A stretch of 38,188 bases of DNA from Planctomycetota bacterium (GTDB lineage Bacteria; Planctomycetota; Phycisphaerae; WQYP01): contig JAJYFE010000024.1 of the NCBI GenBank assembly GCA_021785435.1, positions 1 through 38,188 on the forward strand, written 5' to 3'. Made by a program: the position numbers and the translations under genes. Below the pieces are notes generated by a model. The model was given only the letters and a program-made list of their open reading frames with translations. It was not told where the DNA came from and ran no database searches. Position 1 is the first letter of the stretch, and every line of letters starts with the position of its first letter. Below are positions 2,555-37,878 of the stretch, in pieces.

Positions 2555-2708
2555 GCGTAGATTCCACCCCTGGCAAGGTCTCCAAAGGCGACTCCTCAAT
2601 CCGCCGAAGGTCGCCGTGGGCGGCTAAACTATTCCGCCTCCGTGCGGACCGGGGGCTGTATATTTTGGTTGTCGGCGTAGTTTAGTCGCCCCGGCGACCC
2701 GCGCTGGG
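2555..2708. repeat. Interspersed repeat, copy 1 (longest copy)
   Basis: This segment shares about 60 nt, essentially identical, with 12039-12098 (gattccacccctggcaaggt and following) and then continues with a part shared with copy 3 at about 35846-35942 (ggcggctaaactattccgcc and following). Copy 2 can be derived from this one by a 75-bp deletion between two GTCGCC repeats at 2610 and 2685. A partial inverted copy lies near 26020. It separates two genes and supplies the 3' end of the upstream coding sequence. Confidence 0.8.
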
Positions 2709-5038
2709 CCATCTGTGGATTGTTGGGCTACGCGGTTTGGCCCTCCCATGCGGATCACCAACAACGATACGCTCCAGGCGGCAGCCGGCCGCGCAAAACG
2801 CAAATGTCCACCGTCCCAGGCGAATGGCGCCGGCTCCGCCAAGAGACCGCGCGCCCGATCATAGGTTTCCATCGCTGCGTGGCGCGGACACGGGAGGTTG
2901 CGCCACAGAATATTCAGTGGCATGGGATCGAGCGACAGGTTCGCCACCCCGAGCAGCACCGCGCCTCCTGTTTGCTTCCAAAATGGCGCCAGGTTGGCGG
3001 CGCCGACCAATCCAAGGAAGGGCGCCGCCGGAGCGAGCCAGGCCAGGATCGCATGCATCTGGCGCTGGCGGTGATAATTGCGGAATTGAACCGCCCGGAG
3101 GGTTTCGGTTTGACCATCGTACGGCAGCACCGCCACACGACCGCCCCACTCATTTTCAAACAGCACGATGCCGGGACCGAATTCCGCCGGTTGGCCAATC
3201 TCGTCCCCCCAAAGCAGACGCGAAATCGTGCAGGCGGCAGGATCAACCGTGAGATGATGGATGTTGCCGCCCATATGACGCAGGGGCATCCGCACGCCGC
3301 ACTGCCCACCGAACGCCGGGTCCAGGATTTCTTCCGCGCCCACGGCGCACCGGCCCGCGGCCTGGCCAACCGCCACGCCGACCAATCGCCCCAACCCGCG
3401 CAAGGCAAAGCATTCCGCAGCCGTGGCGTCGAGCAACAATGGCCCCCGTAACCACTGGCGCAGCGTCTCTTCGTCGACCGCCAGCGGCAGGTCGCCGCTG
3501 ATGGCCATCGGCAGCGCGTTTTCCCGGCGCGTGACTGTCCCATCGCCATGACGCACCGTCGTATGGGCGATGGGAATTCCCAACTGGGGCAGGCACGTCT
3601 CCCACGCCCGCTGGACAACGCATCCCTCAGGCGACAAACCTTGACTGCGGCTGAAATCGGAGACGCGTTCGACGAGGGGCACATTCACGCCGCGCAAGGG
3701 GCCTGCGGCCAGACCCGCCTCGGCAAGTCGATCGAAATACCTCCGCGCGTGCTGGAGCAGCGCCGTGTTCGCCGGTTCTTCCTCCAGCTCCGGTGAGGAA
3801 AAGCTGTGCAGATCCAAGGTTAATTCAGGACTTACGCAAAAGTATGACAACGCCATTTGCAACCGCAGATGCGCCGCCGATTTATTGAACCGGGTGAAAG
3901 GCGAACTCTCCAGTTCCGGCGCGATGCGCGTTTCAGGAGGCAGCAGGGCGCATGTCGTCAGCGCCAAGGCCAGTCCCTCCATGGCTTCGCCGGCGGAAAA
4001 CTCCCGGTAGCATCCGAGGCACGGGCGGGACATTGGCGTGCGTCCCGCCCCCGCCAATTTCCGCAATAGCGGATGCCACAATCGTCCCTCCGCCGAATGC
4101 ACGGCTGGCGCGGAAGACATTAATCCGACGGTCGTAGCCGGCGAGGTGGCGTGAATCGCCTGCTCAAATCTTGTCGCGATGGCCTCGAAGGTCTCGCGCA
4201 GCAACTCGTGCCAGACCACGCGCTCCGGCGGCGCACGATCCCCTGAACCTTCCGCCATAGAGGACACAGAGCTCGCAGAGGGTGCGGAGCCGGGCTTTGG
4301 CGGCGCGCCCGCCGGTGATTTCGCGCGGACACAATCAAGATCGGGACAACACTCTACGCCGCCCTTATTGCTCTGCGGCTTCTGTGTGCTCTGTGGCTCG
4401 GCGTTGAGAAACGCAGGATCAGCCGGGGCATAGACCAGCCTGAGCAGTTCCTCCCGAGAGACGGTCCGGCCGATTTTCCGCCCGAAAAGCTCCAGGTGGT
4501 CCGGACAGTAACAGCCCCAGGCGACCGGATAATGGTTGTGCCAACGAAAATCGTCATCGAGCAGGATGTAATCCGGCTGACAACGCGCATAGATAGACAG
4601 GACTTGGGCCATATGTTCCTGCCACCGCGTATCGAGAGGGCAGGGCGAACGCGCAGACATCGCGCCGTCGTGGCCGACCATGGGTTGCCAGCGGAATTCG
4701 GCGACGGAGGAAAACGCCGCGTCATGGTGGCCCAGCGTTTGCCAGATATTCAGGCCGAATTCAATCCCCGCCGCCCGCAGCGCCTCGCCGCAGCGTATCA
4801 CCATCGCCGCATATGCCTCGGCTTCCGGCAGCGTGCGATGCCGCAGGTGCAGATCGTGCGACTCCGTGTGAATCATCACGGATTCAATGCCGCAGCGGCG
4901 GCAGTATTCCACCAGTTCGGGAATCCGCTGCGCGGCGTTGTACGCCATCAGACAATAGCGCAGCAGGTAGCGGCGGGCGGGTGGAGCAGCAGCTGGGAGT
5001 ACCGAGGGTGTGGCAGGAGCTGCCGAGGTGTCCTTCAT
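2624..5038 (-). CDS. Unassigned TIM-barrel-like (glycosidase-like) protein
   Basis: I do not recognise a named family. The 804-aa protein begins, after a Pro/Ala-rich stretch, with a region that looks like the first strands of a TIM barrel (LVEYCRRCGIESVMIH, GIEFGLNIWQTLGHHD, PDYILLDDDFRWHNH). An acidic LLDDDFR motif and a GCYCPDH motif are plausible active-site or metal-binding elements. The C-terminal third looks like beta-sandwich sequence. ATG 5038 overlaps the sulfatase stop as ATGA, so the two are probably translationally coupled. Two oddities are visible. Residues about 214-262 are encoded by a 144-bp inverted-repeat element, and the last 28 or so residues are encoded by interspersed repeat copy 1. 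Context suggests a polysaccharide-degrading role; this is inference. Confidence 0.7.
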   Translation of the reverse strand: MKDTSAAPATPSVLPAAAPPARRYLLRYCLMAYNAAQRIPELVEYCRRCGIESVMIHTESHDLHLRHRTLPEAEAYAAMVIRCGEALRAAGIEFGLNIWQTLGHHDAAFSSVAEFRWQPMVGHDGAMSARSPCPLDTRWQEHMAQVLSIYARCQPDYILLDDDFRWHNHYPVAWGCYCPDHLELFGRKIGRTVSREELLRLVYAPADPAFLNAEPQSTQKPQSNKGGVECCPDLDCVRAKSPAGAPPKPGSAPSASSVSSMAEGSGDRAPPERVVWHELLRETFEAIATRFEQAIHATSPATTVGLMSSAPAVHSAEGRLWHPLLRKLAGAGRTPMSRPCLGCYREFSAGEAMEGLALALTTCALLPPETRIAPELESSPFTRFNKSAAHLRLQMALSYFCVSPELTLDLHSFSSPELEEEPANTALLQHARRYFDRLAEAGLAAGPLRGVNVPLVERVSDFSRSQGLSPEGCVVQRAWETCLPQLGIPIAHTTVRHGDGTVTRRENALPMAISGDLPLAVDEETLRQWLRGPLLLDATAAECFALRGLGRLVGVAVGQAAGRCAVGAEEILDPAFGGQCGVRMPLRHMGGNIHHLTVDPAACTISRLLWGDEIGQPAEFGPGIVLFENEWGGRVAVLPYDGQTETLRAVQFRNYHRQRQMHAILAWLAPAAPFLGLVGAANLAPFWKQTGGAVLLGVANLSLDPMPLNILWRNLPCPRHAAMETYDRARGLLAEPAPFAWDGGHLRFARPAAAWSVSLLVIRMGGPNRVAQQSTDGPARVAGATKLRRQPKYTAPGPHGGGIV
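4254..4397. repeat. 144-bp MITE-like element inserted in frame in a CDS
   Basis: The ends are imperfect inverted repeats of 28 nt (left gccatagaggacacagagct..., right gctctgcggcttctgtgtgc...; 22 of 28 positions pair). The CTCTGTG-type arms resemble a repeat seen in many bacterial genomes and also at 29442-29483 here. The length of 144 nt is exactly 48 codons, so the host reading frame stays open, and it encodes a low-complexity Ser/Pro/Ala-rich insert with three cysteines. Confidence 0.7.
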
Positions 5039-6603
5039 TTCGCCGGCGCTCCTATGTTTCCTGACCCAACCAATTCACTATTGCCAACCTGGCGGTTGAC
5101 CCCCGATCGCGCGGCTAGGCTTTGGTGGGTTTCCGGTTCCAAGCTTCTTATCCGATCACGGTTTGGCTCGGGGAACTCGCCGGCATGCGGGTGTTCCCGG
5201 TACCAACGCGTGGGAGGGTGAAGCTTCCGCTCCAGTTCCCACCCCAGCGGTTGCTCGGTGCGGATCGTCCAATCCAGCAGTTCGCCCAGCAAACGTCCCT
5301 GCACGCCGGCGTAGCCGGCCTCGCCAAAACGATTGATCCGTTCTTGCGGATCGTTCTGGTGGTCAAACAGCTCACAGTAATTTTCGCCCGCAGTACAGTA
5401 GGTCAGCCGATACCGCCGAGTGCGAATGCTCTTGGTGAAGCAGGTGTCAAAGAATACCGCTTCTTTCGTGACCGGAATTGGACCCGGGCCGGAGGCGCTG
5501 TACCGCAGCGCCTCGGCATAGCTGGCTCCCTGGACCGAGCAAGGAACCGCCGCGCCGACCAGTTCGCAAAGCGTGGGAAAGATGTCGATATTTTCCACGA
5601 AGGAATCGATGCGCTCGGGACCGAAGCGCCCTTTCCAGTACCAGACGGTGGGAATCCGGTGCAGGCACTCAAAATGGCCCAACGTGTTTTTACCAAGCAT
5701 ACCGTACTCACCGGCGAAATCACCGTGGTCGGAGTTGAATAGAATGATCGTATTTTCAAGGATGCCGCGTTTCTCGAGGTGCTGGAGAATTCGTCCAACC
5801 CCATCATCGACAGCTGTACACATTCCGTAATAATGGGCCAGCGCTTCGCGGTATTTCGCCTCGCCCACCACGCCGACGCGCCAGGCATTCTCGACTCCCA
5901 TTCGAACCGCCCCCGGGCGCAAGCTCAAGGCATGAAGATCGGCCCCCTCGCAATGCCGAATGGCGGACAGGTCAAGCGCCTCGGGGGCATAGAGAAACGG
6001 GCTGTCGAACGAGTTGCAGTAGGGTGGATGCGGAGCGCTGAAGTTGCACCATATCAGGAATGGCTTGGCGCCGAGATCATCGATTTTGCGAATCGTGGTG
6101 TCGGCCACCCAGACCGGCTCGCTGTGTTCGTGGGGCACCTGGCTGGTATAAGCCATAAGGTCGGCAACCTGGGCGTGGTACTCCCGGGTGAAGGTCTTAC
6201 GCCAGCCGACCTTCTCCAGGTAAGTGCGGCTGTAACCGCTCCACACTTCGCCGGTGTCGCTCTGGAACGGTTCCCGCGTCCACTTGGCATAATGCTTCTT
6301 TCCCACGAGCGCGGTCGAGTAACCCAGCTGATCGTGCAGCACCTGGGGAAAAGACAGATAGTTTGCGGGCAATGGAATCATCCCGGCGTACACACCGTGG
6401 GTGTGCACGTACCGGCCGGTCAGCATGGATATCCGCGAGGGAATACACTCCGGCGCGCACGAATAACTCCGCTGGAACGAGACTCCCTCCCGCACCAGGA
6501 CGTCGATGTTGGGCGTGCGAACCTGGGGCCGCTGGGCGCCGCTAAAGCAACCCGCGTGATGTTGGTCGTCCGTGATGAACAAAATGTTGGGGCAGGACGC
6601 CAT
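5035..6603 (-). CDS. Sulfatase (arylsulfatase A-like, formylglycine type)
   Basis: The protein is a type I sulfatase that would hydrolyse sulfate esters, here most likely on a carbohydrate. It shows the N-terminal metal site PNILFITDDQHH, the maturation signature CIPSRISMLTGRY with Cys about 53 as the residue converted to formylglycine, GKKHYAKW, and the second metal site NSDHGDFAGEYGMLGK. Length (522 aa) is normal for the family. No clear signal peptide is seen, so it may act in the cytoplasm or leave by another route. Two ATG codons lie in tandem; I prefer 6603 because AAGGAG is 5 nt upstream of it but only 2 nt upstream of 6606. The stop overlaps the next gene by ATGA. A sulfatase beside fucosidases points to sulfated fucans or a similar glycan. 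Confidence 0.95.
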   Translation of the reverse strand: MASCPNILFITDDQHHAGCFSGAQRPQVRTPNIDVLVREGVSFQRSYSCAPECIPSRISMLTGRYVHTHGVYAGMIPLPANYLSFPQVLHDQLGYSTALVGKKHYAKWTREPFQSDTGEVWSGYSRTYLEKVGWRKTFTREYHAQVADLMAYTSQVPHEHSEPVWVADTTIRKIDDLGAKPFLIWCNFSAPHPPYCNSFDSPFLYAPEALDLSAIRHCEGADLHALSLRPGAVRMGVENAWRVGVVGEAKYREALAHYYGMCTAVDDGVGRILQHLEKRGILENTIILFNSDHGDFAGEYGMLGKNTLGHFECLHRIPTVWYWKGRFGPERIDSFVENIDIFPTLCELVGAAVPCSVQGASYAEALRYSASGPGPIPVTKEAVFFDTCFTKSIRTRRYRLTYCTAGENYCELFDHQNDPQERINRFGEAGYAGVQGRLLGELLDWTIRTEQPLGWELERKLHPPTRWYREHPHAGEFPEPNRDRIRSLEPETHQSLAARSGVNRQVGNSELVGSGNIGAPAK

Positions 6604-6767
6604 CATTTCTCCTTAATCGACGACGAGGTCGGCGTAGTCTTTCCCAAGAGAGCCGGCACCCAGTCGGTATGCCGCGACCCTCCTGGCCCGCCCGTGGTCG
6701 CGGCGAGGATACCCCGCGTCGCCCGGGACATTGTCGGGCGGACCATAACCGAGGTGGTATTGTGGCA

Positions 6768-8426
6768 TTACTTTGTTTCCTGTACCAGCTTCACACCGCC
6801 GGTTTTTTCGGAAAGTTGATAAAACGCTCCTCCCTCTGGAACATTCACGCTTATCGCCCGGTAGCTTGGAATGCTGATGCGCACGCTGTTGCGCTGACCC
6901 ATAGGGGCTTCGGCGTAGACCAGCCATTGGCGGTTGGGCGCCGGGCCGCGGGTCAAGGCCAGGGACATCACCGGGATGGTGGTGGACAGGGTCCATGGTT
7001 GCTTCGGATTGCAGGTGGCCTGAAGCAGGAACCAGTGCTTGTTGCCGCGAATTTCCCGGGATGCTCCGCTTTCAGCGGTGCGTCGGTGCACGACCAGCAG
7101 TTTTCCGTGGCGCCACCATTGACGCAGAATCCTATTGTGGTATATGCGATCCACCGCCGCGACCAATGCCCTAAAGTACGGCGATTTTTCCATGGCCCGA
7201 GAGGGGGGAATCGCGAAATAACGCACCGCCCGCGGGCGCAGCAGCCACATTCCAAATTGCACGAAACCTTCGTACCGCACGGGGGTGAACGGTTCACCCA
7301 TGCGGGCAAAATATTTGAGTTTATCCGTCGCCGCCGTGGCTTGTGGCGCCGGATTGTGTCCATCCCAGGGGGATATTTCGTACCAGAAAGATGGATTCAG
7401 GCGGTACATGGCTGGCAGTTGCAAGGCCAGGTTCATAAAATCAATTTGCGGACTTAAATCGGTGTAATAAGTAATGGGATTGGAAGCGTCCAGGTAATAG
7501 GGAACGTCCCCTCCATCCCACATCAAGGGAGCGATATCGACTCGTCCCGGAATATACATGGAAAACTTCAGCCAATACGGCCAGTAGGCGGTATTGCCAG
7601 CATTATAACCGATAATGACCAAGTGTTTTTTCCAAGCTGGTGCGACCAGGCTGTTCCGCATGGTCTTATGCAACATACGGTAGCGTGTGATCCAGCCGTC
7701 GCCCGCCACTTGTTTCTTGAAGTAATCGTCGCGCCCCCGGCCATACCGGGTGAGATACCGCCGGTCCTCCGGCGCCTGGGACCAGACCAACCGGGGCGCC
7801 TCGTTGTCAAAAAGGAAGATCACCCGGGGCGGATTGGGGTACCATTGCTGAAGTTTCTCCATGGCCGCATTGCGTATCCACAGGCGTCCCACGTTGCGCC
7901 AGGGTTGGATCGCACCGAAAGGTGAAACCTGATGGAGCACTTCCCCCTTGGCGGTGACCACATCGGGATTTTGTCGCGGCGGCAGGCGCCAATAGGCTGG
8001 TGACGTCGCTAACTCGCCCACCGGCCCCCAGGAACCGATGTTGAGCAGACAAATCGGAAGCTTTAATTGCCGCGCCTGTTCGAGCGGCCTCTTGTAGTAG
8101 TTAATAAACGCCTGGCTGTAATAACTCCGGGGGTTGGGATGCCCGGGAAACGCGAAGCTGGGCAGTAGAAAATGGCCTTGCTGGATCAGCCGCAACTGAG
8201 CCCCGGGACCCCAACCCTCGCGTGTGATCCAGCTGCAGGCCAGCGGCAGGGGACGGCCCCGCTTGCTGAAATTGGGACGCGTGGCTTCGGCGCGAATTTC
8301 ATTAGCCACAGCGCGGATGGCCGCAGCCGGTAATTTATTGTTCGCGGCCGTAGCACGGATCGGCCATGTGAGGATGCCACCAACAAATAGAATGCCAGCG
8401 GAGAATAACGAGATTGGTTTTGGCAT
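6768..8426 (-). CDS. Secreted protein of unknown family (possible glycosidase)
   Basis: A 552-aa protein with an N-terminal Sec signal (MPKPISLFSAGILFVGGILT, cleavage probably near ATAA). The body is rich in aromatic residues and contains strand-like motifs VIFLFDNEAPRLVW and DIAPLMWDGGDVPYYLD and a basic patch YLTRYGRGRDDYF, which would fit a TIM-barrel carbohydrate enzyme, but I cannot assign a family. The start is supported by GAGGAG 6 nt upstream. It sits between the pseudopilin and the sulfatase, in the same relative position as the large secreted glycosidase of the sister cassette at 17087-20749. The 164 nt to the sulfatase start contain no gene. Confidence 0.8.
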   Translation of the reverse strand: MPKPISLFSAGILFVGGILTWPIRATAANNKLPAAAIRAVANEIRAEATRPNFSKRGRPLPLACSWITREGWGPGAQLRLIQQGHFLLPSFAFPGHPNPRSYYSQAFINYYKRPLEQARQLKLPICLLNIGSWGPVGELATSPAYWRLPPRQNPDVVTAKGEVLHQVSPFGAIQPWRNVGRLWIRNAAMEKLQQWYPNPPRVIFLFDNEAPRLVWSQAPEDRRYLTRYGRGRDDYFKKQVAGDGWITRYRMLHKTMRNSLVAPAWKKHLVIIGYNAGNTAYWPYWLKFSMYIPGRVDIAPLMWDGGDVPYYLDASNPITYYTDLSPQIDFMNLALQLPAMYRLNPSFWYEISPWDGHNPAPQATAATDKLKYFARMGEPFTPVRYEGFVQFGMWLLRPRAVRYFAIPPSRAMEKSPYFRALVAAVDRIYHNRILRQWWRHGKLLVVHRRTAESGASREIRGNKHWFLLQATCNPKQPWTLSTTIPVMSLALTRGPAPNRQWLVYAEAPMGQRNSVRISIPSYRAISVNVPEGGAFYQLSEKTGGVKLVQETK

Positions 8427-8478
8427 GATGGGCTCCTCATAAAATAGCGTCCAGTTTCCAGCAATCGGCCATCAACAA

Positions 8479-8700
8479 TCAGATTTCGATAATCCCAACA
8501 TTGGGTTTCGCCGGCGTTATCGGCGGTCGCGTCACGGGGGCGCCGCGGGTAACGCCATGGCCTTTTGCTGTCAGCGCACCAATCACCGGACCGGTTCTGA
8601 TATCCAGCAGATGCAACCTGATTCCGGAATTAATGATCCACTGCCTCGCCGTAGCCCGTCTCCCGTTTTTCACTTTCGCGGCGCGGCGGCGCCTCACCAC
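8479..8700 (-). CDS. Possible small basic protein coupled to the pseudopilin gene
   Basis: A 73-codon ORF begins with tandem GTG codons; the second forms a GTGA overlap with the stop codon of the pseudopilin gene. The product starts with a very basic segment ([15 protein letters not shown]) and continues without low complexity ([20 protein letters not shown]). No Shine-Dalgarno site beyond coupling and no homologue recognised. It may be a chance ORF; no counterpart of similar sequence was found after the second pseudopilin. Confidence 0.28.
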
Positions 8701-10160
8701 GCTTTGCCGCTGGCCGCGGTGGTGGGATTTACCGTGCGCACTGGAACCATGCAGGTATCAAACGGCGTCGCCAGCGTTTTAATTTGGGGAAACGCCGCCG
8801 TCGTGCCGGTTCCCGTAAGGCCCATCTGGTGAGTATCGGTGGTACCGTTGACCGGTGTAACCGTGTTGCCGCTGTACAAATGCCAAGTGTAAATGTTATC
8901 CCCATTCTGGCCCGCATAGGGTGAGATTTCCCATGTCACGTGATCGTCGCCGAAGCCTACGTTTTGGCCGTCACCGGCATGGTTGCCGGAGTTATAGATA
9001 TACGGTCCAAAGGTGTTGGTTGTCGGCAAGGTGGTGGTGATTCGCTGGTAGATACCCGTGATATCGCCGCCGGCGGGGGAATCTATCGGCGCCATATCGC
9101 TGACCAAGGGGACCTGGCTGTTCGCCCCGGTGGTAGTCCACCACTGACCGAACCCCTGCAGCGTCCCCGGGGGGACGTACTTGGTCCAATTTGGAAACGC
9201 GATGGAATAGCTTAACCCCTGGCCGTAGGGATTGCTGTTGCCGCTCCCGACCATCTCGCCATTTTTATAGCCTGCCACGCCACCCCAAAGGTTGTTGTAC
9301 TGGAGGCCCTGGTATACGGAAAAGGCCTGCGATGGACCGGCCCCGAGGGGATCGGAGGGGCAAATGAAGCTGCCCGGCGTGGTATAGCCCTGGAGCACTA
9401 GAAACCACAGCCCCGCGGTGGGAACGTTATACAAATAGCTCACTGCGCCACCGGTATACCACGCCTGCACGACCTCCTGGGGCGTCCTGGCCTGGTAACC
9501 TTGCAGGACGACATTGGCACCGCCGATCAGGGAAATCTCCTGGCCGTTGTCGTAACTGTCTGTACGCTGGCCGGTGCGGTACAGATAGGGAAACACACCT
9601 TGGTTGCTCTGCCCGTATGTGAGCATCGCCTGGATGATCCCGCGGATATTGGCCATGCACACGGCCCGGTTGGCCAATTCCCGGGCCTTGGCCAAGGCTG
9701 GAAGTAATATAGATATCAATATAGCTATTATTGATATCACCACCAGCAGCTCGATCAGCGTGAACGCCAACGCCGCCTTGAAGCGGGCTTTCCGCGACCG
9801 GAAAACACACGGGTCCAACGCCATCTGGAAGCCCGCCAGCACCCCCAGCGCTTCGCCGATGGACAGGACCCCGATGGCGAACGCCATAAGCCCCGCGTTC
9901 AACACGGCGCCCATCCTTGAAATCACTTTCTCCGTGGCCAGCCCCACACTCTCGACCCACACGCTTACCACAGCAACTAGGGAAGACCCTAACGATCGAA
10001 GACCCGCCACGGCGAACTTGATACCTTGTCGCACTTTCATGGGAAACTCCTGTAAAAAGTGGTCCAGAATCTTTACGCCAGCCGTCGAGGGCGACGGCGC
10101 CGCAGAGCGCGACGGCTCCACAGGGGAACCGAAGAGAGATCTTGAACTATTGTGTGCCAT
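8694..10160 (-). CDS. Pseudopilin-like protein with H...DG motif, long N-terminal extension
   Basis: The core has the type IV pilin/pseudopilin signature [21 protein letters not shown] followed by [21 protein letters not shown], and a C-terminal [19 protein letters not shown] motif typical of the planctomycete/lentisphaeral DUF1559-like pseudopilins. It is paralogous to 20859-22031, including the end [15 protein letters not shown]. Function in this family is not established; surface display near carbohydrate enzymes is a reasonable guess. Three starts compete: ATG 10160 with AGGAGG 6 nt upstream, ATG 10040 with AGGAG 6 nt upstream, and ATG 9824 with no good site but giving a normal 20-residue leader. 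The upper starts add a hydrophobic region ([20 protein letters not shown]) in front of the pilin leader. The segment between 10160 and 10040 overlaps a GGCGACGGC repeat. Confidence 0.85.
10080..10126. repeat. CGTCGAGGGCGACGGC-type short repeat, copy 1
   Basis: The sequence gccgtcgagggcgacggc followed by gcgacggctccaca is shared with 14761-14802, where it is intergenic (ccgtcgagggcgacggctct). Here it lies between the two best start codons of the pseudopilin gene and is translated if the upstream start is used. Confidence 0.6.
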
Positions 10161-10324
10161 AAAGCACCTCCTTATTATGCGCCCCGCGAAAGCCTGGCCC
10201 CGAATCACATGACCCGGTATAAGCCGGCATCCATTGGGGCGAAACAAATACCGTTTCCTCACGCGAAGCCGCGAAGCCCGCGAAAATACCTTTTTTTAAT
10301 GCTCCCTTGACATCCTTGCCGAGT

Positions 10325-11470
10325 TCACTCCGCTGCAACCATTGCCCCCGGGTTCTCTAATTCATCCTTCACGCTCTTCGCGACTTCGCGCAGGCTGTTC
10401 TCCGGTTGCAGCAACTCGCACAGGATCGCCACGTGGGGGTTCGCCACCGGCTCGCGACGCATTAACTTGATGAGCATTTCCCCCAGCACGCGGACGTAGT
10501 GATCGGGATCGAACCGCAGCCTCGCCACGGGAAATGGAACCGCCATAGGCGAGCCTTTGTTCCAATGTGTGACCACCGACAGGTCTTCCGGTACGCGAAT
10601 GCCAAGCTGACAGATGGCCATCGCGGCGCCGGGAAACAGGTTGTCGTCGCCGATGAACAGGCCGTCGGGTTTCTCGCGGCTGCTGACCCATATCGCCCGC
10701 AGTTCTTCCCACCCCGCGCCCGGAGCGCAGGGAGTCAGGCTGTGGCGGATCCACTGCGGGTTGGCCTGCACCCCGGCGGCCGAAAGCGCCGAGTAAAAGC
10801 TTTCCAGGAATATGGCCGCTTCTTTTTCCCTCAGCTGGGCATACCTCATCAGGGCGATGCGCCGCCGACCCTGGCGTAGCAGATACTCGCCGCCCATGCG
10901 GCCTAGCGCTCCGCTGTCCGGTTCAACCCGGTAGGCGCACTTATCACTTGGGCCGATCACCGGGATATGCTGTTCGCGCCACGCCTCACACCATTGGGAG
11001 AAAGTGTGGCCGGGTGCGAAGGCCGCGACTCCGTTGAGCTGATGACGTCCGAGGGCTTCCAGGAATTCGACGCAGGTCAGCGGACGGGGGGAATCTTCAC
11101 CGGCCGGCAGATGGCCGGCGTATAGCCGCGCGGGGACTCCATGGGCAAGCAGAAAACGCACCACCTGCTGTGGGGTGCGGCGATAGAAATACGACGTCCG
11201 CGGATCAGAAATGTCCACTTCGGCTAAGACGCCGACATGCTGCCTCTTGCTCCGATCGCGGACGTACGTTCCGCTGCCGTGGCGCTGTTCGATGAGACCC
11301 TCCTGAACCAGCATGGCCATGGATTGGGCCACGGTCAGGGAACTGACCGAAAAACGTTCCGCCAACTCGCGGATGGAGGCGAGGCGCTCGCCAGCGCTGC
11401 GCTTCAATATTTCGCCGCGAAGAATGGCGGCGATCTGGTCTCGGACGTTTTTTCTGATTACTTGTGCCAT
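10325..11470 (-). CDS. GntR-type regulator with LacI/periplasmic-binding-like effector domain (A)
   Basis: The first 75 or so residues form a GntR winged helix (ASIRELAERFSVSSLTVAQS, then EGLIEQRHGSGTYV). The rest resembles the sugar-binding-protein fold of LacI-family effectors (ARLYAGHLPAG..., GLFIGDDNLFPGAAMAICQL, GIRVPEDLSVVTHWN). Such proteins usually bind a sugar or sugar acid and repress or activate nearby catabolic genes. It is clearly paralogous to 22423-23589; both share HVGVL.E.DISDP.TSYFYRR. ATG 11470 is chosen; the ORF track uses GTG 11476, which is also possible, and the ribosome site is weak for both. A consensus promoter lies upstream, followed further out by a degenerate second copy of the promoter and gene 5' end. 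It is the first gene of cassette A. Confidence 0.9.
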   Translation of the reverse strand: MAQVIRKNVRDQIAAILRGEILKRSAGERLASIRELAERFSVSSLTVAQSMAMLVQEGLIEQRHGSGTYVRDRSKRQHVGVLAEVDISDPRTSYFYRRTPQQVVRFLLAHGVPARLYAGHLPAGEDSPRPLTCVEFLEALGRHQLNGVAAFAPGHTFSQWCEAWREQHIPVIGPSDKCAYRVEPDSGALGRMGGEYLLRQGRRRIALMRYAQLREKEAAIFLESFYSALSAAGVQANPQWIRHSLTPCAPGAGWEELRAIWVSSREKPDGLFIGDDNLFPGAAMAICQLGIRVPEDLSVVTHWNKGSPMAVPFPVARLRFDPDHYVRVLGEMLIKLMRREPVANPHVAILCELLQPENSLREVAKSVKDELENPGAMVAAE

Positions 11471-11522
11471 TTCCACTCGCTTAGTCGGCCTTCGGCCCTT
11501 TTGAGCTCAACCTTAAACCCAT

Positions 11523-11651
11523 TTAGTGAATTATACACTTTGTGCACACGTCTGTCAAGTGTCGTCTCACCTGTTTCTTCGCCCATCGCCGCACCGAGCG
11601 AAGGATGGCGGCGATCTGCTCTCCAACGGTTTGCCTGATTACCTGTGCCAC
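11523..11651 (-). pseudogene. Truncated duplicate of the regulator 5' end
   Basis: Reading from GTG 11651 gives VAQVIRQTVGEQIAAILR, which matches the regulator N-terminus MAQVIRKNVRDQIAAILR, and then diverges to reach a TAA at 11523. The equivalent of the regulator ATG is GTG here. The ORF (42 aa) runs through the proximal promoter. It is most simply a remnant of a tandem duplication, though it could be translated as a leader peptide from the distal promoter. Confidence 0.7.
11530..11558 (-). promoter_or_regulatory. Consensus sigma70 promoter of regulator A (proximal)
   Basis: On the minus strand TTGACA (11558-11553) is followed by a 17-nt spacer and TATAAT (11535-11530), matching both consensus hexamers exactly. 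The -10 region sits inside AGTG-tataatt-CACT, an imperfect inverted repeat that is conserved in the distal copy, so it is a candidate autoregulatory operator. The spacer contains tgtgcaca, an 8-bp palindrome that is not conserved in the distal copy. Confidence 0.85.
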
Positions 11652-11700
11652 TTCCACTCGCTTCGCCTGTACTGGGCGCAACATTGAACTACATTAGTGA

Positions 11701-11729
11701 CTTATACACTATCTGGCTGCCGCTGTCAA
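11701..11729 (-). promoter_or_regulatory. Second sigma70 promoter of regulator A (distal duplicate)
   Basis: TTGACA (11729-11724), a 17-nt spacer and TATAAG (11706-11701) on the minus strand mirror the proximal promoter 171 nt away. The TAGTG-tataagt-CACTA inverted repeat over the -10 box is preserved, while most of the spacer has diverged. Survival of the promoter elements despite spacer divergence suggests selection. Confidence 0.7.
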
Positions 11730-11774
11730 GTATCGTATCATCTATGGTGTGGCCGGATTTTTTTTGGGGGGGGC

Positions 11775-11838
11775 ATACCCACGGGCGGCATCAATGCCGC
11801 CGCCAAGGCGTTCGGAGCTTGGCGCTATCGCCGCTGGA
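11775..11838. repeat. Second interspersed repeat family, copy 1
   Basis: The stretch around ggcggcatcaatgccgccgc and the following ttggcgctatcgc aligns with 32412-32480 (gacggcataaaagccgccgc, then ttggccctatcgc) with scattered substitutions. The first part can fold as cggcat-caa-tgccg style hairpin. Both copies are intergenic. Confidence 0.5.
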
Positions 11839-12038
11839 GTTGGGTACTCACACCGCAGACCAGAAAATCGCCGAAGGGAGGCAGTCGCCGAAGCAAAACA
11901 ATGGGACGGTTTTTGATCTGGCCGTCGGCTTGGGGCAGCGGGGCCAGGGGGTGCGGACACATTTCTTGGCAAACGGGGTTCTGGTTCCCCCGGCGAGACA
12001 CCGATACCGGGAACGGCGTGGGCGGATGAGGTGCTACC

Positions 12039-22031: not shown

Positions 22032-22422
22032 GTGGATCTCCTTAAAAAAGGGCCTTTAAACATCACAACTACGCTGATTTCACGGATCGACGGAGAAACC
22101 CAACCTTGTCCGTGCCATCCGTGTGATCCCCGCCGCGGCGGGTAAACGGTGGTTCTGGTTTTTCGTGTCCCCCGCGGCTCATCATTCCTCTTCCGCATGC
22201 GCCTTCGGGTGATCCAGTGTTGTTCGGTTCACCGCGTTGAAACGCGGTGCTTGCTATTTCGCTCTTTCTGCACCACAAAAACCAAGCCCCTATAAACTAA
22301 AACCCGTCCATATCGGTTCACCGCGCTAAAGGTCGCCGCAGCGACTCTACGACACGGTGCTCACAATTCCGTATCTCACGGTCAGCCCTGGCGACTAAAC
22401 TGCGCCGCGAAGGCCGCGAAAA
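22032..22422. other. Repeat-rich gap between regulator B and pseudopilin B
   Basis: No credible gene (the 69-aa ORF lacks a ribosome site). It holds the hairpin caccgcg-ttgaaa-cgcggtg at 22230-22249, a related ggttcaccgcg unit near 22315, the core ggtcgccgcagcgact at about 22330-22345, and ggcgactaaact near 22390, which is also in interspersed repeat copies 1 and 3. No clear promoter for the pseudopilin was seen. Confidence 0.55.
22230..22249. repeat. Hairpin caccgcg-ttgaaa-cgcggtg
   Basis: Seven paired bases around a six-base loop, in the long leader upstream of pseudopilin B. No T-tract follows. It could be a REP-like repeat or a leader hairpin. Confidence 0.5.
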
Positions 22423-23589
22423 TCACACTTCAACCATCTCCCTGTCCGCCATCCGGGTTTCCTTCGCGCTCTCCGCGGCGCGGTTTAGTCGCCGCGGCGA
22501 CCGTGAGCTATCCTCCGGTTCCACCAACTCATGCGGGAGCAGCACCGGCGCTTCCGGCACCGGCTCGTGCCGCATCAGTTTCAACAGCGCCGCCCCGGCC
22601 GTCCGGGCGTAGCCATCGGGATCAAACTCCAGTTTCACCACCGGAAACGGGCAGACCATGCCCGAACCATGGTTAAAGTGCGTCACCACCAGCAGATCCT
22701 CCGGCACGCGGATACCCAGCTGCAAAATGGCCATCGTTGCGCCGGGAAAAAGATTGTCGTTGCAAATCAGCAGCGCGTCCGGTTTCTCCCGCCCTTCCGC
22801 CCAGATCGCCCGGAATTCCTCCCAACCCGCCTCCGGGGCGCAGGGAATGCGGCTGCGGCGAATCCAACGCTCGTTAACCGCCACCCCGGCGGCCCCCAGC
22901 GTCGCCCGAAAATTCTCCACAAATCCCGCCTGCCGATCCGCTGGCCAGCGGTATTCCATCAGGGCGATGCGCCGCCGGCCATGGCCAAGCAAATAATCAA
23001 CCCCCGTCCGCACCAGCGCGGTGGAGTCCCAAATCACGCGGCGCGTGCACTTTTCGCTTGGTCCCACCACGGGAACCCGCTGCTTTTCCAACGCCCCGTA
23101 CCATTGGGGAAAAGTCTGGTCGGGCGCGAACGCCACCACGCCGCTAAGCCGGCGGCTCTCGATGGCCTCCAGAAACTCCGTGCAGGTAAGCCGGCGGCGA
23201 ACCGCATCGCGCGGGCGCAGATGGCCGGCGTACAAACGGGCGGCGGTCTGGTTTTCACGCAGAAACCGCACTACCTGCTGCGGGGCCCGGCGGTAGAAAT
23301 ACGAAGTCTGTGGATCCGAAATATCTTCTTCCACCAGCACGCCGACGTGTTGGACTTTCGTCAGGTCGCGGACATACGTGCCGCTGCCGGTACGGCGTTC
23401 AATCAGGCCTTCCGCCTCCAGCACGCTTAAGGATTCACGCACGCTGGGCGAGCTGACACCGAAACGTTTGGCGATGGCCGCGATGGAGGGCAATTGTTGG
23501 CCCGGCTGGTACTGGGCGAATATTTCATCGCGCAAACGCTGGCTGATTTGCTGCGAGACACTCGGCCTCTGTAACGTGTCATTCGTCAT
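22423..23589 (-). CDS. GntR-type regulator with LacI/periplasmic-binding-like effector domain (B)
   Basis: A 388-aa paralogue of regulator A. The GntR winged helix covers residues 1-75 or so (LPSIAAIAKRFGVSSPSVRES, EGLIERRTGSGTYV). The effector domain includes ARLYAGHLRPRD, ALLICNDNLFPGATMAILQL and GIRVPEDLLVVTHFN. It should control cassette B and probably itself in response to a sugar. ATG 23589 has AAGG 8 nt upstream. Two promoter-operator units lie upstream. The last 25 or so residues (after EPEDSS) are Arg/Glu-rich and are encoded by DNA carrying the GTCGCCGCGGCGAC palindrome at 22488, so the C-terminal tail seems to come from a repeat insertion. Confidence 0.92.
   Translation of the reverse strand: MTNDTLQRPSVSQQISQRLRDEIFAQYQPGQQLPSIAAIAKRFGVSSPSVRESLSVLEAEGLIERRTGSGTYVRDLTKVQHVGVLVEEDISDPQTSYFYRRAPQQVVRFLRENQTAARLYAGHLRPRDAVRRRLTCTEFLEAIESRRLSGVVAFAPDQTFPQWYGALEKQRVPVVGPSEKCTRRVIWDSTALVRTGVDYLLGHGRRRIALMEYRWPADRQAGFVENFRATLGAAGVAVNERWIRRSRIPCAPEAGWEEFRAIWAEGREKPDALLICNDNLFPGATMAILQLGIRVPEDLLVVTHFNHGSGMVCPFPVVKLEFDPDGYARTAGAALLKLMRHEPVPEAPVLLPHELVEPEDSSRSPRRLNRAAESAKETRMADREMVEV
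22488..22501. repeat. GTCGCCGCGGCGAC palindrome within the 3' end of regulator B
   Basis: A perfect 14-bp palindrome with the same GTCGCC/GGCGAC core as at 62-75, 2685-2698 and 12094-12107. It is located within the C-terminal codons of the regulator gene. Confidence 0.6.
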
Positions 23590-27580: not shown

Positions 27581-29368
27581 TTATTCCCCGGATTCGAGCA
27601 CGGCCATGAAGGCCTCCTGTGGAATTTCCACCCGGCCGACCTGCTTCATCCGCTTTTTTCCCGCCTTTTGCTTTTCCAGCAGCTTGCGTTTGCGGCTCAC
27701 GTCGCCACCGTAACATTTCGCCGTCACATTCTTGCGCATAGCGCTGATGGTCTCCCGGGCGATGACCCGCGACCCGATCGCCGCCTGCAACGGAACCTCG
27801 AAGAGATGCCGGCCGATTTCCGCCTTGAGTTTCTTGATAATGGCCCGACCGCGCAAGGCCGCCTTGTCCCGATGCACAATCAGGCTTAACGCATCCACCG
27901 GCTCGCCGTTAACCAGAATGTCCATGCGCACCAGGTCATCAGCGTGAAACCCCAGTAAATTGTAATCCAGCGTGCCGTAGCCGCGGGTAATGGTTTTAAG
28001 CTTGTCGAAAAAATCGAAAATGACCTCGGCCAGGGGCAGATCGTATTCGAGAATGACCCGCTGCAGCCCGAGGTACTCGGTTTTGCGATACTGGCCCCGC
28101 CGATCCTGGCACAGTTTCGATATATCGCCAATGTGTTCGGCGGGAAGAATAATGCTGGCCCGGATCATCGGTTCGCGGATTTCCCGCACCTTGCTGGCGT
28201 CCGGCAGGGCCGCGGCGCTGTCGATGGTCTTGACGGCGCCATCCTGCATCAGGATTTCATACGGCACAGTGGGCGCTGTTTGCACCACCTGCACGTGCTG
28301 TTCGCGTTCCAGTCGCTCCTGGACGATTTCCATATGCAGCAGACCGAGGAAGCCACAGCGGAAACCGAATCCGAGGGCGTCCGATGATTCCGGCTCAAAG
28401 CTAAACGATGAATCGTTGAGGCGCAATTTTTCCAACGCTTCGCGCAGATGGGTGTATTCCGTATCCGGGCCGGGATAGAAATCACAATAAACCATCGGTT
28501 TGGCGGGGCGATAGCCGGGCAAGGCGCTAGCGGCGGGGGTGGCGGCATCGGTGACCGTATCACCGATGGTGACATCGGCGAGCATCTTGATGTTGGCCAC
28601 GAGAAAGCCCACTTCACCGGCGGCCAGGGTGTCCACGTGGGTTGGCTTGGGCATGAATTTACCCAAGTCGGTGATCTGATAGACGCGCTGACGGCCCATC
28701 ATCCGGATTTTCTGCCCAATGGCCAGCCGCCCATTCACCATGCGCACGTACACAATCACGCCGCGGTAGTCGTCGTATTTGCTGTCGAAGATAAGCGCCT
28801 GCAGGGGACGGGCGGCGTCGCCCTTGGGCCCCGGCAGTTGCCGGCAAATCGCCTGGAACAACTCCACCAAGCCCAGGCCGCTTTTGGCCGATATTCGCAG
28901 GCAGCTTAACGCATCAATGCCCAGAACCTGTTCCATCTCCTCAGCCGTTTCATCGGGCCGGGCACTGGGCAGATCAATTTTGTTGATAACGGGAATAATT
29001 TCCAGGCCCGCCTCAATGGCGGCGTAGGCGTTGGCCACGGTTTGGGCCTGCACCCCCTGGGTCGCATCGACCACCAGCAGCGCTCCTTCGCACGCCTGCA
29101 ACGCCTTGGCCACCTCATAATGGAAATCGACGTGGCCGGGCGTATCGATCAGATTCAGCATGTAACGCTGGCCGGCCAGTTCATAAGTCACGGTGACCGC
29201 GCTGGCTTTGATGGTGATGCCGCGTTCCCGCTCCAGCTCCAGATCATCGAGGACCTGGGCCTGCATCTGGCGCTCACTGATGGCGCCGGTGCGTTCTAAG
29301 ATCCGATCGGCCAGCGTGGATTTGCCGTGATCGATATGGGCAATAATGCAGAAGTTACGGATTTCCAT
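27581..29368 (-). CDS. lepA: Elongation factor 4 (LepA), translational GTPase
   Basis: A 595-aa EF4, close to the usual 600. The G domain shows [13 protein letters not shown] (G1), RGITIKA (G2), DTPGHVDF (G3), NKIDLPSA (G4) and SAKSGLG (G5). Then come EF-G-like domains II, III and V, and the LepA-specific C-terminal domain with [21 protein letters not shown] and the ending [26 protein letters not shown]. It acts on ribosomes during elongation or biogenesis. The start is fixed by [17 protein letters not shown]; the ribosome site is weak. It is downstream of recR on the same strand, separated by 146 nt that contain hairpins. Confidence 0.98.
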
Positions 29369-29441
29369 AAGCGCTCATTTCGCCAGGTCGGGCTGGCCGG
29401 ACGTATCCGGGTGGTGATCCGCCCGGGTTTTTCACCACCGC

Positions 29442-29483
29442 ACCACAGAAAGCGCGGCGAAGCCGCGCTGGGTCCTCTGTGGT
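29442..29483. repeat. CTCTGTG-type hairpin between recR and lepA
   Basis: Outer arms accacaga and tctgtggt enclose a perfect inner hairpin agcgcggc-gaa-gccgcgct. The arms resemble those of the element at 4254-4397. An additional ggtggtga/tcaccacc pair lies just before it at about 29411-29439. No U-tract follows, so a terminator role for recR is uncertain. Confidence 0.55.
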
Positions 29484-29514
29484 TTCTGCGGCGAAACGTT
29501 CGAGTCGGGCGGCC

Positions 29515-30144
29515 TCAGAGGCGCGTCCGTCCGGCCAGGGCGTCGGAAAGAATGGTTTTGTTGGCGTGCTCAATCTGCGCTCCGCTCGGCAGGCCGCGCG
29601 CCAGACGGGTAATCGTGATGCCGGCGCCCTGCAGTTGGCTCTGCAGATATAACGCGGTGCCATCGCCTTCCATGGTCGGATTCGTCGCTAAAATAATTTC
29701 CCGCACCACCGGCCGGCCGTCTGCGTCGCGCTGCCTGGCCCGCTCCAGCAGCGCTGGCACGGTAAGCTTTTCCGGCCCGAGTCCCTCCAGCGGCGCCAGC
29801 CGTCCGAGCAGCACATGATAGACTCCGTCATACGCTCCGGTTGCCTCCAGCTGAAATAAATCTTTCGGCTGCTCGACCACGCAGATCACGCTGTGGTCCC
29901 GGCCGGGATCCGCACAGATCGCGCAGGGATCCGCTTCGGTCAGCTGATGGCAAATATGGCAGTGCCGAACCTGCTCTTTCACGGCGCGAATCGCCTCCGC
30001 CAAGGCCAAGGCCTCCTCCGGCTGGCTTTTCAGAATATGGAACACCATCCGTTCCGCGGAGCGTGCGCCGACGCCCGGCAGCCGACCGAACAATTCAATC
30101 AGCCGCTGCACGCTGGCGCTATAACCGGCCTTGGACCGGGCCAT
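29515..30144 (-). CDS. recR: Recombination protein RecR
   Basis: A 209-aa RecR, which with RecFO loads RecA at gaps. It has the N-terminal HhH-like region LIELFGRLPGVGARSAERMVFHIL, the C4 zinc finger CHIC...CAIC (Cys 62, 65, 74, 77), and the Toprim domain with VICVVEQPKDLFQLE and REIILATNPTMEGDGTALYL, ending with the conserved ITRLARGLPSGAQIEHANKT. ATG 30144 has GGAG 8 nt upstream. The gene order dnaX-ybaB-recR is the classical cluster, although a 230-nt gap separates it from ybaB. Confidence 0.97.
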   Translation of the reverse strand: MARSKAGYSASVQRLIELFGRLPGVGARSAERMVFHILKSQPEEALALAEAIRAVKEQVRHCHICHQLTEADPCAICADPGRDHSVICVVEQPKDLFQLEATGAYDGVYHVLLGRLAPLEGLGPEKLTVPALLERARQRDADGRPVVREIILATNPTMEGDGTALYLQSQLQGAGITITRLARGLPSGAQIEHANKTILSDALAGRTRL

Positions 30145-37483: not shown

Positions 37484-37878
37484 CCGCCGGCGTGGTATGG
37501 AACTGCCGACTGCCCGAACCGGGGTGGAACCAGCTGCGGACTACGCGACAGGCAACCAATTTTCAAAACACCCGCGGTAAAATCGGCAGCAGGTGACCTG
37601 GATGCCGATCTGGCGCTGGTCGCGGATACGCTGGCCGTCGCTGCCGGAATATATCCGGCTGGCAGTCGTCGCTCTGGTCAAGACCGGCGGGTAGTGCATA
37701 GAGCGGTTGCTAAAAATAAACTGCACATTGGGAGTCGGGCTTCCAGCCCGACAGTCGGCCAAGATGGCCGACCCCCAAAATAATGTGTGGTTTATTTTTG
37801 GCAATCGCTATAATCGTGCACGGCCGTACACTTGCAGCACCCGACCCGTGTTTGCAGGGGCACGGCAGGTTGCTTGAG
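37484..37878. other. Convergent intergenic region with a structured repeat
   Basis: No supported gene. A short plus-strand ORF from GTG 37594 (VTWMPIWRWSRIRWPSLPEY...) ends at 37695 and is not convincing. The region then holds the nested inverted-repeat element at 37703-37810. It separates the solute-binding protein gene and the phosphatase gene, which converge. Confidence 0.5.
37703..37810. repeat. 108-bp nested inverted-repeat element
   Basis: Terminal arms of 20 nt (agcggttgctaaaaataaac and gtttatttttggcaatcgct) pair at 18 positions; the two exceptions are G-T/T-G wobble pairs. Inside are two perfect small hairpins in tandem: gtcgggct-tcc-agcccgac (37734-37752) and gtcggcca-aga-tggccgac (37755-37773). 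In RNA this would form a three-way-junction-like structure. It is MITE- or REP/BIME-like and could act as a bidirectional terminator. Confidence 0.8.

Follow-up and report, generated by a model that had tools for sequence, protein, structure and literature searches.

The window, by which we mean the whole stretch of 38,188 nucleotides that was analysed, is contig 47 of the draft genome, 4.4 Mb in 234 contigs, of an uncultured Planctomycetota bacterium. Near its left end is a leftwards transcribed open reading frame (ORF; 2624–5038, − strand) coding for a protein of 804 amino acids that belongs to an uncharacterised Planctomycetota family; profile and structure-database searches with this protein gave no Pfam match and no PDB relative, and an AlphaFold model built from two sequences has a mean pLDDT of 29. 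A match to the protein is present in 20 of the 198 genomes searched, counting that of the window itself. The closest comparison is with a congener (G001, locus L127), whose protein shares 91% and 94% identity on the two sides of the insert described below, and the gene is under purifying selection on either side, with dN/dS values of 0.21 and 0.19 that span both lineages and are not datable to the period after the insertion. We note that a second dispersed repeat, at 2488–2718 and with 31 matches in the fetched loci of the genus, covers the final ∼31 codons of the ORF (2624–2718), so that the C-terminal tail of the protein also appears to be repeat-derived.

Within this ORF lies a repeat element in frame with the coding sequence, as the preliminary description had claimed, and the host frame is open across the whole insert. 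The element accounts for a clean insertion: all 16 aligned homologues lack the corresponding residues and align with the flanks of the insert at residues ∼204 and ∼269, and the orthologous site in the congener is empty. In the coding orientation, the occupied site has the form GCCCCGGCT-GATC-CTGCG...GGTTCAGGG-GATC-GTGCGCCGCCGGAG, and the two GATC copies (4417–4420 at the 5′ side and 4237–4240 at the 3′ side, both − strand) are spaced by exactly 180 nt and may represent a target-site duplication. Each can be extended to a longer form, GATCCTGCG (4412–4420) and GATCGTGCG (4232–4240), and these are near-repeats matching at 8 of 9 positions. Taking out one 180-nt period yields YAPAD(P/R)APPERVVW, equal in length to the YAKVCPAPPERVVW of the congener, and this sets the net insertion at 180 nt or 60 codons (4241–4420, − strand; residues 207–266), counting one copy of the putative duplication; these limits were assigned by reading the sequence, the automatic alignment having set the gap slightly elsewhere. 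The limits originally proposed, 4254–4397, are thus too narrow, and the length of exactly 48 codons (144 bp) given with them followed from the wrong boundaries, since both the family termini and the empty site point to 4241–4420. That the insert is an assembly artefact, or that the gene is a pseudogene, might be supposed from a single sequence in a draft genome of 234 contigs, but the exact 180-nt period, the intact 804-residue frame, and a host dN/dS of about 0.2 make this highly improbable.

The structure of the window copy is that of a short element with inverted arms set inside its ends. The arms, at 4254–4280 and 4371–4397, are imperfect, 27 nt long, and complementary at 22 of 27 positions; when the window was scanned for such arms three places were identified, and four Markov sequences of equal length gave none. 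They are built from the heptamer CACAGAG recurring every nine bases, in units of CACAGAGNN. The CACAGAGNNCNCAGA motif occurs at nine sites in the window where 1.5 are expected, a number reached in none of 100 shuffles, and the CACAGAG arm motif, when one mismatch is allowed, is found genome-wide at 39 sites, compared to six for a reversed control. The 5′ end of the element on the coding strand (4371–4417, − strand) consists of the family terminus CCTGCGTTTCTCAACGCC (compare CCCGGATTTTTCACCACC) followed by CACAGAGNN units, and the 3′ end (4241–4280, − strand) of CTCTGTG units followed by the terminus GGCGGAAGGTTCAGGG (compare GGTGAAACGTTCGGG). The arms first reported as 28-nt imperfect terminal inverted repeats are real inverted repeats, and their position is subterminal. 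The 5′ end is identical at 31 of 37 positions (aligned, and counted by eye) to an intact copy in the congener over CCTGCG...CACACAGA, the corresponding window stretch being CCTGCGTTTCTCAACGCCGAGCCACAGAGCACACAGA. Overall, the window copy has degenerate ends, with 12 of 18 matches at one terminus, and they are more degenerate than the termini of other copies. Between the arms is a copy-specific interior (4281–4370, − strand) that is not common to the other copies found, and its matches in its own genome are weak and at chance level; a BLASTN search of the same genome with the region recovers two other arms, in contigs C115 and C61, at 87–88% identity (E 0.004).

Arms of this length can pair, with a folding energy of −73 kcal/mol for the region, and one could imagine a hairpin removed from the RNA, in the manner of the intervening sequences (IVS) of 23S rRNA, to leave a protein without the 60 residues. 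However, the folding is only slightly better than that of shuffled sequences (z −1.7, with 11 of 200 equally good), the element has no Rfam match, and an open frame would be unneeded. Nor do the arms flank the best-scoring genes for the four-helix TIGR02436 protein associated with IVS, considered as a possible carrier and rejected: two of the 30 best-scoring loci have an arm within ∼3 kb, neither flanked on both sides. We consider RNA removal extremely improbable.

Other inverted repeats are present in the window. That at 22385–22498 (23/27 complementary) belongs to another family, of the GGCGACTAAACTGCGCCGCG type, and lies at the 3′ end of a leftwards transcribed ORF (22423–23589, − strand); the same module is also found within the C61 and C56 elements. 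A 27-nt inverted repeat at 37702–37809 (also 23/27) lies past the last long ORF found and is apparently unrelated to the CACAGAG family.

Comparison across copies defines the CACAGAG family by its outer ends, CCCGGATTTTTCACCAC(CGAG) and CCCGAACGTTTCACC, with the arms subterminal; the same pair can be given as CCCGGATTTTTCACCAC(C) and GGTGAAACGTTCGGG, or as CCCGGATTTTTCACC and GGTGAAACGTTCGGG. The search of the genome for other copies, proposed in the preliminary description, was productive with respect to ends: when one mismatch is allowed, the end pattern occurs at 46 sites, some of which are isolated chance motifs within genes, and the reversed pattern at one. The density of the pattern is similar in the congener, and other families of the class have it at lower density, together with similar arms; related arms arranged as inverted pairs are present in 16 of 198 relatives and absent from the control. 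Copies range from 79 to 476 bp with related ends at both termini, in a census that is partial and covers the fetched loci. The intact 222-bp copy in the congener (G001 C158) has an interior common to that of G000 C61, by alignment, and of C48, by the printed sequence. The window itself contains a second and shorter copy (29421–29504, + strand) between ORFs that we take from reading the sequence to be lepA-like (27581–29368, − strand) and recR-like (29515–30144, − strand). A copy with the same ends occupies the same place in the congener (G001 C497, L251 1304–1543), its interior being longer by about 155 bp, and it seems that the interior of this element has been gained or lost while its ends persist.

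Several observations bear on mobility. First, the C61 copy also has an empty orthologous site in the congener, with flanks of TTAGCC and TTAGCC at the filled site and a single TAGCC at the empty one; for the C81 copy the flanks are too diverged for an occupied/empty comparison. Secondly, other end pairs are flanked by TTAG/TTAG (G001 C500) and TTAG/TCAG (G001 C497), with further pairs imperfect or less clear. From these flanks we tentatively assign the family a target duplication of ∼4–5 bp, a length that is short and of which the TTAG(CC) at C61 could in part be a preferred target. Thirdly, no inward-facing pair of ends at transposon distance, as an autonomous partner would have, occurs among the listed end sites of the genome, and no transposase with family ends was found, Y1 being the one transposase family searched; the Y1 (RAYT) genes were rejected as partners, two of the 30 best-scoring loci having a nearby arm and neither having flanking pairs. 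Because the elements are short and multi-copy, have terminal inverted repeats, and have empty orthologous sites, we read the family as MITE-like and non-autonomous.

The segment in the window is thus very probably a MITE-like inverted-repeat copy that inserted in frame and is tolerated, and that is itself non-coding. The element would have inserted into the gene for the uncharacterised protein, leaving the sister species without it, and the cut at a short target was probably made by a trans-acting transposase, giving a duplication of ∼4 bp (GATC here, TTAG at the second site). Since the net gain is 180 bp and the insert is free of stops in the host frame, we predict that ribosomes read through it to give a protein with 60 extra residues between two conserved segments. 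The copy would then have survived selection, presumably as a neutral change, through tolerance in both frame and fold and with no coding function of its own.

The timing is less simple, because nucleotide identity between the window and the congener falls to 72–78% near the insertion site (window 4290–4480 against L127 2550–2680) from ∼95% elsewhere in the gene, so that a recombination tract is possible, which counts against a simple insertion within the lineage. It is conceivable, although we think it somewhat unlikely, that the insert predates the split of the two species or arrived with a recombined allele, and that the congener lacks it through allele replacement. Such a history would account for the sharp drop in identity on either side of the site, and an older insert fits element ends that are more degenerate than the ∼5% divergence of the host gene; but the 15 of 15 more distant homologues also lack the insert, so the insertion happened somewhere, and the identity of the element is the same under either history, with a change in timing and route.

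A different matter is whether the family as a whole behaves as protein-coding inserts, as first supposed. A strict protein-coding palindrome family would be selected for an open frame and for spread through genes, as are the Rickettsia palindromic elements, and it has in its favour that the window copy is in frame and open, that the nine-base period of the arms keeps the frame when the number of units changes, and that several frames are open in a few short copies. However, each of the 11 other copies checked in the genus is intergenic and most copies in the family have stops in most of their frames, from which we conclude that the family is not specialised for coding. The insert has a codon score of −0.09, compared to 0.16 and 0.11 for the host gene before and after it and 0.10 to 0.31 for neighbouring genes, and its codon usage resembles that of non-coding sequence, the pattern to be expected if ribosomes simply pass through repeat DNA; moreover, its interior is absent from all other copies found. 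A selected coding family is accordingly a very unlikely reading, and the supposition is not supported for these elements. Nor does the MITE-like reading call for any special property of the window copy: a stretch of 60 codons with the composition of the insert is open in one frame with a probability of ∼0.23, and, as one length in three preserves the frame, roughly one in 13 insertions would survive as an open frame.

Candidates for further in-frame copies in the relatives were rejected: at the five loci inspected, the long ORF that spans the copy looks like a frame on the antisense strand, read-through from upstream, or a C-terminal end. Of ten such ORFs in the relatives none has a Pfam domain, and we accepted no internal insertion among them. 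One broader proposal is that the CACAGAGNN arms, with their nine-nucleotide units, let Planctomycetota elements sit in genes and so form a recurrent and undescribed source of protein loops across the phylum. Were this so the host gene would be one example of many such repeat-derived loops, but we regard the proposal as unlikely.

The rarity ascribed to coding inserts in the preliminary description stands insofar as in-frame insertion is uncommon, although it has been described before. Rickettsia palindromic elements (RPE; Ogata et al. 2000, 2002) are 105–146 bp long and specific to Rickettsia (PMC2229807, PMC10969869), and one study found them as in-frame fusions to 19 protein genes, at least one of which was read as neutral (PMC2229807). 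In-frame insertions are also described for ERIC/RU-1, RU-2 and RU-3 (PMC2759123) and for QMITE1/2 of Coxiella (PMC5896051; PMC10969869). Like RPE, the element reported here is a small inverted-repeat element lying in frame in an open protein gene and absent from its homologues; unlike RPE, and in a comparison drawn by description, the family is seen almost entirely as non-coding copies between genes, with one intragenic case, and neither a family-wide conserved open frame or peptide nor repeated intragenic insertion was seen. The ERIC/RU and QMITE repeats are similarly short and non-autonomous with inverted ends, mostly intergenic and sometimes fused in frame with ORFs, and target duplications are reported for several such repeats. 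They differ in host, and the CACAGAG family differs from them, again by description, in its variable interior, its subterminal arms of nine-nucleotide period, and its G+C-richness, and in that a terminal TA and a partner transposon were not seen. The REP/BIME sequences mobilised by Y1 (RAYT) transposases (PMC2817692) are likewise dispersed, palindromic and intergenic bacterial repeats, whereas the present family has two distinct termini and longer arms, and the best-scoring Y1 genes are not flanked by the arms.

The open-licence literature, to which the search was confined, yielded no description of the CACAGAG repeat, and it is apparently undescribed as a repeat family; in the same literature we found no prior report of a mobile repeat becoming protein sequence in this phylum. 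The phenomenon has precedents in Rickettsia, to which the present case adds an independent example and no new principle, and its interest is modest. What the locus offers is a clean before-and-after pair, an empty congener site and a filled site of exactly 60 codons, together with family termini by which copies can now be counted.

Elements of this type also occur in other arrangements among the fetched loci. At L171 (G021 C127 3000–17000), five CACAGAG elements with similar interiors are found in ∼10 kb (2796–11909), mostly between ORFs, forming a local cluster. At L186 (G044 C422), the interior of a CACAGAG element at 1217–1324 contains a repeat of nine-nucleotide period, CGCAGATGCACGCGGATGAACGCGGAT, which suggests that related heptamer-plus-two repeat types exist.
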